64,000 nt of DNA from Fibrobacter sp. (GTDB taxonomy: Bacteria > Fibrobacterota > Fibrobacteria > Fibrobacterales > Fibrobacteraceae). Positions 10,271 to 39,896 of this stretch are shown piece after piece. Location of the stretch: positions 1 to 64,000 of the forward strand of contig JAKSIK010000005.1 in the NCBI GenBank assembly GCA_024398835.1, written 5' to 3'. The notes under the pieces are model-generated. The model did no database searches, had not been told where the DNA came from, and worked only from the letters and a program-made list of their open reading frames with translations. The first letter of the stretch is position 1. Each line of letters opens with the position of its first letter. A program made the translations under genes and the position numbers.

Positions 10271-10440
10271 TTTTTTCAAAATCATGTGGGGTGAATCAAT
10301 GTTTTTAGTTCAATTTGTATCATAAAAACTTGTTGAAATGCACGAAATTAGCGAAAAATATAAATGTTTTGCATAAAAATCTATGTTTTGTATCTCAAAA
10401 ACTAACTTTTTGCAAAAATAAAGGTTATATTTGATATTGT
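10271..10440 (+). promoter_or_regulatory. AT-rich upstream region of the TIGR02147 operon
   Basis: 170 bp of strongly AT-rich DNA. It has two ATGTTTTG repeats (10364-10371 and 10383-10390, 19 bp apart), a related ATGTTTTTAG further up, and a TATATT box 9 nt before ATG 10441. The repeats could be binding sites for a regulator, perhaps the TIGR02147 protein itself; this is inference. Confidence 0.35.
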
Positions 10441-11280
10441 ATGAAACCTGTGATGGAATACCAGAATTTTCGCCTCTATATCCGCGATTACTATGCGGAA
10501 CAGAAGCGGATGTCTGCATTTACCTGGCGTGACTTTGCCAAGGCGGCTGGTTATTCCTCTCCGGTTTTCTTGAAATTGGTCTGTGATGGTCGTGCGAATT
10601 TAAGTAGTGTAGGGGTAGAACGTGTAGCCTCTGCCATGGGCCTAGTCGGGGTTTCGCTCCAGTACTTCCGCACCTTGGTGGCTTTCAACCAAGAGAAGGA
10701 TTCTGGGAAGAAAAAACTCCACTTCAAGGCATTACGGGAGTTGGCAAAAGACAACGCCTTTGCCATTGTGGGTGAGGAACAGTACGACTATTATGAATCC
10801 TGGTTGAATCCAGTGGTTCGCGAGCTTGCTCCGAAGATGCCGGGCGTTTCTGCTGCAGGGATGGCTGCGGAAATGACTTTCGGGGCTTCGGCAAAGGAGG
10901 TGCGTAAGGCTCTTGCTTTGCTTGAACGGGTGGGATTCCTGGAGCAGGCGGCTGATGGTGCCTACGTGCAGAGCAGCAAGGCTCTCACGACCGGGAATCT
11001 GGAAGTCGCCTCCATGGCGGTTCGGGATATGCACCGCCAGATGGGGGAACTTGCCGTTCGTGCTCTGGATGAGGTTCCTGTTCGGGAAAGGGATATCTCG
11101 GGCATGACCCTCGGCCTTTCGGAAGTGGCGTACCAGAAGGCTGTAAAAGAGATTGAGGAATTTCGCCGGCGGATTGCTTCCATCGCTATGGAAGATTCTG
11201 CCGCGGAGAAGGTTTACCGCATGAACGTGCAGCTTTTCCCGCTGACGAAGAATGCGCACAAAGGAGGCGAAGATGCTTAG
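10441..11280 (+). CDS. TIGR02147 family (DUF4423) putative transcriptional regulator
   Basis: A 279-aa protein of the TIGR02147 family, known as a paralogous family in Fibrobacter and also present in Bdellovibrio-like bacteria. It has the family start EYQNFRLYIRDYYAEQK, a helix-turn-helix-like segment at about 30-60 (FAKAAGYSSPVFLKLVCDG), a middle DUF4423 region with YYESWLNPVVREL, and a winged-helix-like segment at about 150-180. No membrane segment is seen, so it is probably a cytosolic DNA-binding regulator. Its stop overlaps the following lipoprotein start by 8 bp, and the PAS gene follows with another overlap, so the three are surely translated from one mRNA. Its target is unknown. Confidence 0.75.
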   Translation: MKPVMEYQNFRLYIRDYYAEQKRMSAFTWRDFAKAAGYSSPVFLKLVCDGRANLSSVGVERVASAMGLVGVSLQYFRTLVAFNQEKDSGKKKLHFKALRELAKDNAFAIVGEEQYDYYESWLNPVVRELAPKMPGVSAAGMAAEMTFGASAKEVRKALALLERVGFLEQAADGAYVQSSKALTTGNLEVASMAVRDMHRQMGELAVRALDEVPVRERDISGMTLGLSEVAYQKAVKEIEEFRRRIASIAMEDSAAEKVYRMNVQLFPLTKNAHKGGEDA

Positions 11281-12655
11281 TTACAAAAAGTGCGGCTTTG
11301 CGCTTGCCTTATGTTGCTGCGTTCTTCTTGCCATGATGGCTTGCTCCAGCGAAAGCGACGTGGCGGGCGGCGTAAGCGAAGAGACGAACACGCTTGCGGG
11401 AATCTTGGTGGATCAGAACGGAAAGCCTGCAGCAGGCATTGCTATGATGGCCCGGTCTGTTCAGGTGGATTCCATCGTGGAGGAAGATACCACGGGTAAG
11501 GACGGCTCCTTTGCGTTTGAAGTCTCCCATCGCGGTTTGTATGGCATTTCTGCTATGGCGGATTCATTGGCTTTCTTCCAGCTGGTGGATTTCCAGGGCA
11601 AGGATATGGATGTTTCCGGAAAACTGATGAAGGCTTTCGATTTTGCGGGGCAGGTAGGCTCTCGTGAAAATATGCCGGCAGAAGGAATTGCGGTTGGAAT
11701 TTCTGGCTCCAACTGGAAGACGAATGTGGCTGAGGATGGCTCCTTCAAACTGAATTCCGTGCCGGAGGGCAGCTTTGTACTTAAGGTTGCTTCTCCAGAT
11801 AATGTCCATTTTGCCGATGGCTTCTACATGGTTCATGTTTCTGCTAAGGAAAATTCTGTATTCGGGCCGATTCCTGCAGACAAAGTAACTGGTGAGAAAC
11901 CTGTTAAAAATTCTCTCCTTGGGGTCGTAAAAGATGTGGTGCAGTTTATGCTTCCCATGTCTCCGGAATACGAGCTGAAAAGCTGGTGGCCGTTGGATAA
12001 CTTGGAAGAAAAAGGCTCGCTCCTCATTGCCGCGGATGCGCGCAGTTGGACAGAGGGTGTGGAATTCTATGGCAGGCCCAGTCTTGTAGATGGTATGGAT
12101 GAAAAAGCGGTAGCTTTGCTTGGACCAGATCAGTTTGGGGTGGTGGAAAGCGACAATCACATGCTGGATGATGTTTCCGCTTTCACGCTGGAAGCCTGGG
12201 TTTGGGTGGATTCCGTCACGGACGAAGCAAAGCCTTATCGCAAGAACATCGTGGGTAAGCTTGGCTTTGGTGAAGAGGGCGATAAGGATGTGTTTAGCCT
12301 TGCCTTGGTGAATGGTGATTGTGGTGCTGTAAAGCCATCCATTGGATTCTTTGTGGCTAGCGGCGAAGGAGATTCCCTTTCTTGCGAGAATGGGATCGTG
12401 ACGGAAGATTTTGCGATGAAGGCATGGACCTACGTGGTGGCCAGCTGGAATAATGGCAAGTTGGATTTGTATTTGAATGGTGAATTGTCGGATTCCAAAA
12501 CAGTAGGCATCCAGAAGATGGGCAAGTCTCCAGAGTCCATCTTCTTTGGAAAGGAATCCCTGAATGTCAAACTGGACGATGTGCGGATAAGCACTACGGC
12601 CGTGAATGCGGCAGATGTGCTCTACCGCTACTATCTCAAGGGAGGTGCAAAATGA
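11273..12655 (+). CDS. LamG/concanavalin-like domain lipoprotein
   Basis: 460 aa. The start at ATG 11273 has a perfect AAGGAGG site 5 nt away. A lipoprotein signal follows, with the lipid-accepting Cys probably C24 (LAMMAC). Residues about 35-120 and 125-190 look like small beta-sandwich, carboxypeptidase-regulatory-like repeats (GILVDQNGKPAAGI; PAEGIAVGISG). The C-terminal 200 residues are LamG-like (SAFTLEAWVWV; WTYVVASWNNGKLDLYLNGE; SIFFGKES), a fold used for carbohydrate or protein binding. It is exported and anchored to a membrane. It sits between a TIGR02147 regulator and a PAS protein in one operon, which suggests a surface or periplasmic sensor or binding role; ligand unknown. Confidence 0.72.
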   Translation: MLSYKKCGFALALCCCVLLAMMACSSESDVAGGVSEETNTLAGILVDQNGKPAAGIAMMARSVQVDSIVEEDTTGKDGSFAFEVSHRGLYGISAMADSLAFFQLVDFQGKDMDVSGKLMKAFDFAGQVGSRENMPAEGIAVGISGSNWKTNVAEDGSFKLNSVPEGSFVLKVASPDNVHFADGFYMVHVSAKENSVFGPIPADKVTGEKPVKNSLLGVVKDVVQFMLPMSPEYELKSWWPLDNLEEKGSLLIAADARSWTEGVEFYGRPSLVDGMDEKAVALLGPDQFGVVESDNHMLDDVSAFTLEAWVWVDSVTDEAKPYRKNIVGKLGFGEEGDKDVFSLALVNGDCGAVKPSIGFFVASGEGDSLSCENGIVTEDFAMKAWTYVVASWNNGKLDLYLNGELSDSKTVGIQKMGKSPESIFFGKESLNVKLDDVRISTTAVNAADVLYRYYLKGGAK

Positions 12656-13158
12656 TGGACAATCAGAAAACTCTCGAAGTGGCTTGCTTTGATGTGAATG
12701 AGCATGGCCGCATCCTTTTTGGAAATAAGCGCTTCTGCCGGATGTTTGGCTTCGCGGAAGACGAAGTCACCTGGCACTACATGACGGATTTGTACCGCCA
12801 TCCGGAAGATTGGGCCCGCTATAAGGCCAATGCGAATGGCGCGGAGGTCAAGTTCACGGTAAAACTTCGCAACCGGAAGGGCCGTAGTTTTGAATGCCAT
12901 ATTTCCCGTGTACCGGAGATGGACGGGGAGGGAAGACTGGTGTATCACAATACGGTTTATAAGACCAGCGAGGCGAAGGCTGTGAATCCTGTGGTGGCGG
13001 TGGCTGCACATTCCATTGTGTTCCTCGCCAAATGCGCCCATTGCGGTAGCCAGATTCCGGTGCATAATGCCGCTGAGGCTCACATGCGCATGCTGTGCGA
13101 TGAATGTGCTGCCACGGCATATCCGGAGGCTTTCAAGATGAAGGCCGCTCACTCCTAA
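12652..13158 (+). CDS. Soluble PAS domain protein with C-terminal zinc ribbon
   Basis: 168 aa. A PAS domain covers about 8-105 (ACFDVNEHGRILFGNKRF, then VKLRNRKGRSFECHI). A C-terminal CAHCGS...LCDEC pair of CxxC motifs (about residues 125-150) predicts a small zinc ribbon. No kinase, GGDEF or other output domain and no membrane segment. It overlaps the lipoprotein stop (ATGATG) and has a GGAGG site. A stand-alone PAS plus zinc ribbon may act as a signalling adaptor. A strong terminator follows 24 bp downstream, ending the three-gene unit. Confidence 0.7.
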   Translation: MMDNQKTLEVACFDVNEHGRILFGNKRFCRMFGFAEDEVTWHYMTDLYRHPEDWARYKANANGAEVKFTVKLRNRKGRSFECHISRVPEMDGEGRLVYHNTVYKTSEAKAVNPVVAVAAHSIVFLAKCAHCGSQIPVHNAAEAHMRMLCDECAATAYPEAFKMKAAHS

Positions 13159-13181
13159 AGTTTCATCATAGAACGCAACAA

Positions 13182-13217
13182 GTCCGGTGGTGCTTCGGCA
13201 TCGCCGGACTTTTTAAT
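13182..13217 (+). terminator. Rho-independent terminator after the PAS gene
   Basis: Stem GTCCGGTG / CGCCGGAC around a TTCG-containing apex, followed by T5. It closes the TIGR02147-lipoprotein-PAS operon. Confidence 0.85.
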
Positions 13218-13237: not shown

Positions 13238-13855
13238 ATGAAAGTTGGTAAATGTATTCGTGTAGGTGCCTTTATTGATATTTTCTTTATGGTTGGCTTT
13301 TTGCTTGCCGGTTGCTCTGAATCCTTCACGGATGAACGCAACGGTCAAAGTTACAACATTGTAGAGATTGGAGGCAAAGTTTGGATGGCTTCGAACTTGA
13401 ACTTTGAAACCGCAGGAAGCTTTTGCCCTGATGGGGAGGCAAAAAACTGCAAGAAGTTCGGACGCCTGTACACCTGGGCTGCTGCCATGAAGGCCTGCCC
13501 CGAGGGGTGGCGCTTACCCTACAAAGAAGATTATGAATCCCTTGTGAATGCGGGTGGCGGTGCGGCTGTTGCTGGTTCTGCACTTAAATCTGGCAGTGGC
13601 TGGTTTAAAAAGGGGAATGGAACGAACATGTTGGACTTTGGGGTGCTGCCTGCGGGCTATCGCGGTAGTGACGGCAAGTTTGATGGCATTGGCGGCTACG
13701 GCTATCTCTGGACCGCTACCTCAGGAACAGCGGAGGATTCCTCAGACGAAAACTTCGCCTTCTATCTATATCTCGATTTCAGCAGCGATGCGGCCAAGCT
13801 GAATTCCTTTGATAAGGCGGATGCCCGCTCCGTGCGCTGCGTGCGGAACCCATAG
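13238..13855 (+). CDS. FISUMP-domain lipoprotein
   Basis: 205 aa. A lipoprotein signal ends at LLAGC (C26). One FISUMP (Fib_succ_major, TIGR02145) domain follows, with its usual marks: NIVEIGGKVWMASNLNFE, KFGRLYTWAAAMKACPEGWRLP written in parts as GRLYTWAAAM and CPEGWRLP, FGVLPAGYR, YLWTAT and the terminal SVRCVRN. These domains are abundant in Fibrobacter cell-surface proteins and their function is unsettled. This is a minimal form: lipid anchor plus domain, no linker. It has its own promoter-like box and no partner gene. Confidence 0.9.
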   Translation: MKVGKCIRVGAFIDIFFMVGFLLAGCSESFTDERNGQSYNIVEIGGKVWMASNLNFETAGSFCPDGEAKNCKKFGRLYTWAAAMKACPEGWRLPYKEDYESLVNAGGGAAVAGSALKSGSGWFKKGNGTNMLDFGVLPAGYRGSDGKFDGIGGYGYLWTATSGTAEDSSDENFAFYLYLDFSSDAAKLNSFDKADARSVRCVRNP

Positions 13856-39764: not shown

Positions 39765-39802
39765 CGCTAGAATCATAAAATTTCGTCTGGCCTGCGCTAG
39801 CT
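39756..39802 (+). repeat. 47-bp direct repeat, copy 1
   Basis: Identical to 39850-39896. Its ends are inverted repeats GCTAGCGC (39760-39767) and GCGCTAGC (39794-39801), so it can form a hairpin of 8 bp with a 26-nt loop. It begins inside the last codons of rlmH, whose TAG lies in the left arm. Confidence 0.85.
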
Positions 39803-39849: not shown

Positions 39850-39896
39850 CACCGCTAGCGCTAGAATCATAAAATTTCGTCTGGCCTGCGCTAGCT
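39850..39896 (+). repeat. 47-bp direct repeat, copy 2
   Basis: Perfect copy of 39756-39802 at a 94-bp step, with 47 bp of non-repeated sequence between the copies. Same GCTAGCGC / GCGCTAGC ends. Confidence 0.85.

Follow-up and report, generated by a model that had tools for sequence, protein, structure and literature searches.

Controller (C) proteins autoregulate from paired sites, and in the Rgg/RRNPP systems (ElrR, ComR) a cytosolic helix-turn-helix (HTH) regulator is encoded beside the gene of a surface protein. The TIGR02147/DUF4423 (Fsuc_second) family, to which the regulator described here belongs, has been named without a function. Across 5.39 million open papers TIGR02147 is not mentioned, and DUF4423 occurs only in a Bdellovibrio proteome table. 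No description of the pairing with a partner gene, the partner tag, the operators or the recognition residues was found in the same literature.

The unit analysed here lies in a window of 64,000 nucleotides of a Fibrobacter sp. contig, to which all positions refer, and consists of three overlapping open reading frames on the forward strand: a TIGR02147/DUF4423 regulator of 279 aa (10441-11280), a LamG lipoprotein (11273-12655) and a soluble PAS protein with a C-terminal CxxC...CxxC segment (12652-13158). The best lipoprotein start, chosen by eye, is the ATG at 11273, which has AGGAGG just 5' and is followed by a hydrophobic signal and the lipobox LAMMAC. With this start the regulator and lipoprotein genes overlap by 8 nt (ATGCTTAG), whereas the alternative longer frame from 11252 would give an overlap of 29 nt. 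The lipoprotein and PAS genes overlap by 4 nt (ATGA, within ATGATG). A hairpin at 13180-13211 (+) with a subsequent T tract forms 14 pairs at -25.3 kcal/mol (z -6.5; none of 200 shuffles was equally stable), and the overlapping genes closed by an intrinsic terminator that an earlier note had described are thus confirmed. The first gene beyond the terminator (13238-13855) encodes a separate FISUMP (TIGR02145) protein, FISUMP also being the body of nine of 34 tagged partners named below.

The cysteine of LAMMAC at the signal end agrees with the sequence criterion for a bacterial lipoprotein, and the protein is predicted from signal and lipobox to be exported. It continues with the tag CSSESDVAGGVSEETNTLAG, carboxypeptidase-regulatory-like stretches and a C-terminal LamG/ConA-like domain (CarboxypepD_reg 35 bits; Laminin_G_3 53.4 bits, gathering score 27.6; both above cut-offs). 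The third protein had been called PAS/zinc-ribbon. Its PAS domain (PF00989, 42.3 bits, cut-off 22.6) and CxxC pairs are present, but no Pfam zinc-ribbon model exceeds its cut-off over the CxxC segment (LysW type 15.2 against 27). The AF2 model of this protein (mean pLDDT 77.4) has a fold closest to FixL/LOV sensor chains (E ~1e-7 to 1e-6).

The regulator is a full-length member of its family, matching TIGR02147 with 280 bits (curated cut-off 50) over 1-271 of 272 positions. DUF4423 (PF14394; 114 bits, gathering score 30, residues 103-268) is the sole Pfam family listed with E up to 1, and no Pfam HTH family matches. The AF2 model (mean pLDDT 83.7) comprises an N-terminal five-helix HTH (~10-84; helices 10-25, 29-36, 43-48, 56-65 and 70-84, the third being the predicted recognition helix), a winged-helix-like domain (~105-180) and two long helices. 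In the rows shown by Foldseek and VIA-align, the HTH part and the remainder find separate matches and none extends over the full length; absences from these lists, such as that of RRNPP proteins from among close matches, exclude nothing. A PDB sequence search with the regulator and PAS profiles returned nothing convincing.

The predicted five-helix HTH may correspond to that of XRE-type regulators (C.BclI, C.AhdI, ClgR, DdrO, P22 c2). In this lambda-repressor-like comparison Foldseek probabilities are 0.99-1.0 (C.BclI, C.AhdI) but E is ~0.1, and VIA-align Z is mostly below 8 (~6.9-7.7 for DdrO, P22 c2 and C.AhdI). The window regulator differs from these proteins in its winged-helix-like C-terminal half, its dozens of paralogues with separate sites, and the lack of a Pfam HTH match. 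Rgg/RRNPP proteins (ElrR, ComR) appear only as weak Foldseek rows (probability 0.20-0.25), and their TPR peptide-binding domain is not seen in the AF2 model, which has the winged-helix-like unit and two long helices instead. The top VIA-align row is the HTH-PAS fusion Caur_2278 (3pxp; Z 8.8, rmsd 3.0, 81 residues), matched in the HTH only; it carries HTH and PAS in one protein, whereas the PAS protein of the window is separate and bears a CxxC segment. A toxin-antitoxin pair of the HigBA type was rejected: the HTH does resemble HigA, but the partner is a LamG/CarboxypepD_reg lipoprotein and not a RelE-like toxin.

The three genes form a conserved operon in relatives and do not stand together by chance. 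A scan of genome contigs kept 80 regulator relatives, among which 39 loci (L166-L204; regulator identity 49-71%), selected by the regulator, served as orthologs. The contigs of L175 and L199 stop at the regulator, which leaves 37 loci. At one step the rows of L202 and L204 were dropped ahead of counting. A PAS match is next in order at all 37 loci, and regulator, lipoprotein and PAS occur together at 36, in some with only a partial lipoprotein match. In the remaining locus, L188, the lipoprotein has been lost and regulator and PAS lie ~35 nt apart, as they likewise do in L119 and L120, two loci picked for having PAS without a good lipoprotein match. The CxxC pairs are retained in most PAS orthologs; since the match ends by about residue 110 in five of the 37 (L198, L200-L203), the CxxC tail is optional. 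The PAS protein is present in 44 of 61 genomes of the same genus, never in two copies. Upstream of the cassette, many orthologs (L166-L197) share a gene of ~540 aa, where the window has a phosphomethylpyrimidine-kinase-like gene.

TIGR02147 matches were found in 140 of 150 Fibrobacterota genomes (38 of 40 genera), with up to 85 copies per genome (G146), and in none of 14 control genomes; a search of plasmids with the regulator gave no match. The ten genomes lacking the family belong to two genera (G098 and G121 of g18, and eight of g21), apparently through lineage losses. We surveyed the neighbours of 130 TIGR02147 genes in eight genomes with a simple gene caller and codon models for each genome, covering 87 of the 88 copies in five Fibrobacteraceae genomes (G017:C1:2008155 was dropped as its gene was not called) and a sample of 32 of the 85 copies in G146. 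A same-strand gene lies directly 3' of 126 of the 130, and 120 of these genes look exported. In the five Fibrobacteraceae genomes 83 of the 87 copies are followed by a same-strand gene, 48 of these junctions overlap, and the 83 partners have a lipobox signal (63), another signal-like start (11), a hydrophobic start (6) or none of these (3). For comparison, the other genes of these loci have 200 closely spaced same-strand neighbours, which divide into 16, 61, 28 and 95 (lipobox 63/87 versus 16/200; Fisher p 3e-28). Distant members follow the same rule in G097 (9/9 exported) and G146 (31/32), though not in G102 (0/2). Three exceptions (L056, L076, L110) have a lipoprotein with a tag-like start upstream on the opposite strand.

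The window unit is therefore one copy of a phylum-wide cassette in which a TIGR02147 gene directly precedes an exported partner. The earlier expectation that lipoproteins would recur beside other TIGR02147 genes is borne out by the 120 exported partners and their shared tag, and local chance is decisively disfavoured; PAS genes do not recur in this way, as this PAS protein occurs at most once per genome and beside this one cassette only. The PAS protein is not a general TIGR02147 partner and is best read as an add-on of the window-type cassette. Partner bodies vary: among 34 of the 36 listed partners of G000 and G001, Pfam names CarboxypepD_reg (11), FISUMP (9), LamG (4), CBM_4_9 (2) and pectate lyase (1). 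Mantel tests show regulator and partner similarity to be correlated in some genomes and parts, not in all.

Although their bodies differ, most partners share a tag right after the anchor cysteine, approximately CSxxxxVAGGxSEETNxIA, as judged from a list of 125 of the 130 partners (those below 100 aa or on the opposite strand were omitted). A strict hand-written pattern matched only 32 of 96 lipobox-type partners, and we turned to an HMM for which 44 partners from G001 and G012 served as training set; at a threshold of at least 8 bits in other genomes it still misses divergent tags recognisable by eye. It found the tag in 21 of 29 partners versus 1 of 294 other genes in G000, G017 and G004, in 8 of 9 versus 0 of 33 in G097, in 19 of 32 versus 2 of 142 in G146, and in neither the 2 partners nor the 10 other genes of G102. 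Scanned at the DNA level (3 bits plus lipobox; training genomes included), the tag lies downstream of 83 of 130 TIGR02147 genes versus 2 of 389 others. In 400 kb of G001 taken without selection, two of the three TIGR02147 genes have a tagged partner, both partners being from the training set, and none of the 300 other genes, including 32 lipobox-type ones, carries the tag. The tag is thus specific to TIGR02147 partners. As it directly follows the lipid anchor, it probably serves to route the lipoproteins within the envelope or to anchor them there. Both non-partner matches in G146 are short remnants of a tagged gene (L145:211-378 and L146:5124-5291) near intact tagged cassettes, which suggests duplication and decay of cassettes.

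Upstream of the regulator gene we recognise two putative operator half-sites on the forward strand, a distal TGTATCAT (10316-10323) and, 73 bp from it, a proximal TGTATCTC (10389-10396). The latter, assigned by eye, starts 14 nt before a weak -35 box TAACTT (10403-10408), itself assigned by eye 17 nt before the -10 box TATATT (10426-10431); the automatic promoter script instead worked with a spacer length of 18 and a TGT lying upstream, and a generic sigma-70 scan does not list this -35. Of 40 ortholog upstreams, the window's among them, 37 have two copies of TGTATCNN, with the half-site TGTATC, at a distance of 73-74 bp. The proximal copy is mostly 14-16 nt 5' of the -35 in promoters with TATATT, the -10 of most ortholog upstreams. 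Exact TGTATCAT occurs upstream of 12 of 130 TIGR02147 genes versus 1 of 867 others. Five whole genomes contain nine matches to the pattern TGTATC-N63-69-TGTATC, of which seven lie directly 5' of TIGR02147 genes; the sole one in the window's own genome is the window site. Read backwards as a control, the pattern gives three matches.

Further paralogues use words of their own in a like geometry (TGTTGCAT, TGTAGCAT, TGTATAAT, TGTTTCAT, TGTACTTT). TGT stands 14-16 nt before the -35 in 24 of 86 TIGR02147 promoters versus 5 of 244 others, the most enriched of all 64 trinucleotides at this place. Of 53 promoters, 36 have a distal direct copy of their own box where 5.3 would be expected, and 34 of the 44 distances fall at 70-74 bp. 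Inverted copies occur in 19 of 53 (3.9 expected), 15 of their 22 distances being 80-83 bp, and thus form distal palindromes. The box geometry is found in 22 of 73 versus 12 of 235 promoters in the survey genomes, where it was chosen, and in 16 of 37 other paralogues versus 5 of 130, a set from the same genus and hence not fully independent. The signal emerged only with position and spacing fixed, and a generic test for direct repeats found no excess (17 of 110 TIGR02147 versus 45 of 308 other promoters with a score of at least 11). Among 68 further genes (of 70 new loci), many from distant subfamilies, only 14 promoters follow the TGT rule, which suggests that distant subfamilies use another arrangement or that sites were missed. 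Repeats of other kinds were also observed: one with a 47-bp period upstream of L004 (G000:C10:35000-45500), and an exact direct repeat (39770-39792 and 39864-39886, 94 bp apart) 5' of another window gene, for which the repeat script gives 33 bases per repeat, 23 of them searched.

The half-sites co-vary with the regulator. In a set of 104 regulator-operator pairs (~43 effective, 258 columns), the strongest covariation of half-site base 4 is with residues 41 and 46, in this order, and that of base 5 with residues 46 and 44. A structure alignment of the regulators covered 61 of the 80 scan loci. The best window of eight residues is 39-46, and the three residues lie in or at the predicted recognition helix. 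The observed maximum was reached in 0 of 300 permutations for base 4 and 2 of 300 for base 5, phylogeny being ignored, and the top two columns never both fell inside 39-49 (0 of 300 for each base). P41/L46 goes with TGTAT, S41/V46 with TGTTG, A41/Y46 with TGTG, R41/D46 with TGTTC and, in L284, P41/V46 with TGTAG; exceptions are A41/Y46 with TGTATTCC (L276, L288), S41/V46 with GTTTC (L286) and P41/V46 with TGTATC (L271). Together with the paired sites and promoter geometry, this pattern supports the earlier proposal that the AT-rich region 10271-10440 may be the DNA target of the regulator.

We consider it fairly probable that TIGR02147 proteins are local, mutually insulated autoregulators of a repertoire of tagged surface lipoproteins. 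Pairing, tag, operator geometry, residue-base covariation and locality support this interpretation in silico. The cytoplasmic regulator would bind its private half-site, here TGTATC, through the N-terminal HTH, both beside the -35 and at a second copy seven helical turns farther upstream (in paralogues often a palindrome), and would control its own operon, i.e., itself, the co-translated tagged lipoprotein and, in this cassette, the PAS protein. Own half-sites for each paralogue would keep the cassettes largely insulated, and the cell could choose which surface lipoprotein is made. The sign of autoregulation is most likely activation, since the site sits just upstream of a weak -35, with positive feedback and possibly on/off switching. 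An extension, in which up to ~85 cassettes form a switchboard of insulated self-activating on/off switches, residues 41/44/46 and the half-site have diverged jointly into a readable specificity code and cells within one population differ in their surface repertoire, is rather doubtful.

The main rival to activation is a negative circuit, in which the regulator, bound at both in-phase sites, would loop out the DNA between them and repress its operon, so keeping lipoprotein levels low until a ligand releases it. The spacings of 70-74 bp (one of 63 bp) are near whole DNA turns, and the palindromes at distal sites, seen as inverted copies at 80-83 bp, would suit such a loop, as would two DNA-binding-type domains per regulator. 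Many paralogue promoters have good -35 boxes (TTGACT), several with near-consensus -35/-10 pairs, which repression fits equally. The proximal site, however, lies just upstream of the -35 and not over it, and the -35 is poor in the window and many orthologs; we regard looping repression as unlikely, though a serious contender. The earlier note saw the three genes as a signalling module linking the envelope to transcription; on such a model the lipoprotein or the PAS protein would sense something and signal to the regulator. The functional unit stands as a conserved operon, and both the FixL/LOV-type PAS fold and the persistence of PAS beside the regulator in loci that have lost the lipoprotein (L188, L119, L120) speak for a relay. 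Its envelope part found no support: no evidence was found of feedback from the lipoprotein to the regulator, nor any sign of a route between an envelope lipoprotein and a soluble regulator; the data rather fit an output arrangement with the regulator acting on its own operon. Most cassettes moreover lack this PAS gene, which never exceeds one copy in a genome, and the complete relay is improbable. Its PAS-to-regulator half is possible for the window cassette, where the PAS protein probably tunes the regulator.

Were the lipoprotein the main target of TIGR02147 proteins, say in a cytosolic export or quality role with an incidental HTH fold, this would agree with the one-to-one pairing with tagged lipoproteins and the overlapping genes; the covariation of operator and recognition helix and the paired upstream sites make this highly improbable. 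Functionless inertia of gene order might account for an arrangement common to related genomes and for partly co-diverged regulators and partners (the Mantel tests being mixed), but the same pairing recurs at many unrelated loci and in genomes of different families of the phylum, with a partner-specific tag, and we give this explanation hardly any credence.

Autoregulation of tagged surface lipoproteins would bear on the lifestyle of Fibrobacterota, which degrade cellulose by close contact. The S85 genome paper treats the regulation of cellulase genes as an unanswered question, with few recognisable regulators near them (PMC3079729). According to a Fibrobacter proteome study, 40 of the 49 putative lipoproteins that it quantified are lower on cellulose, and several of those listed have carboxypeptidase-regulatory-like domains (PMC6851124). 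These lipoproteins may include members of the tagged repertoire. CBM, pectate-lyase or FISUMP domains are present in some of the partners. With dozens of paralogues per genome and matched sites, the family offers natural material for the study of protein-DNA specificity. A very large paralogous family without known role thereby gains a testable one, the local control of tagged surface lipoproteins; if this holds true, its regulators may select, from a large set of surface proteins, those that a cell produces.
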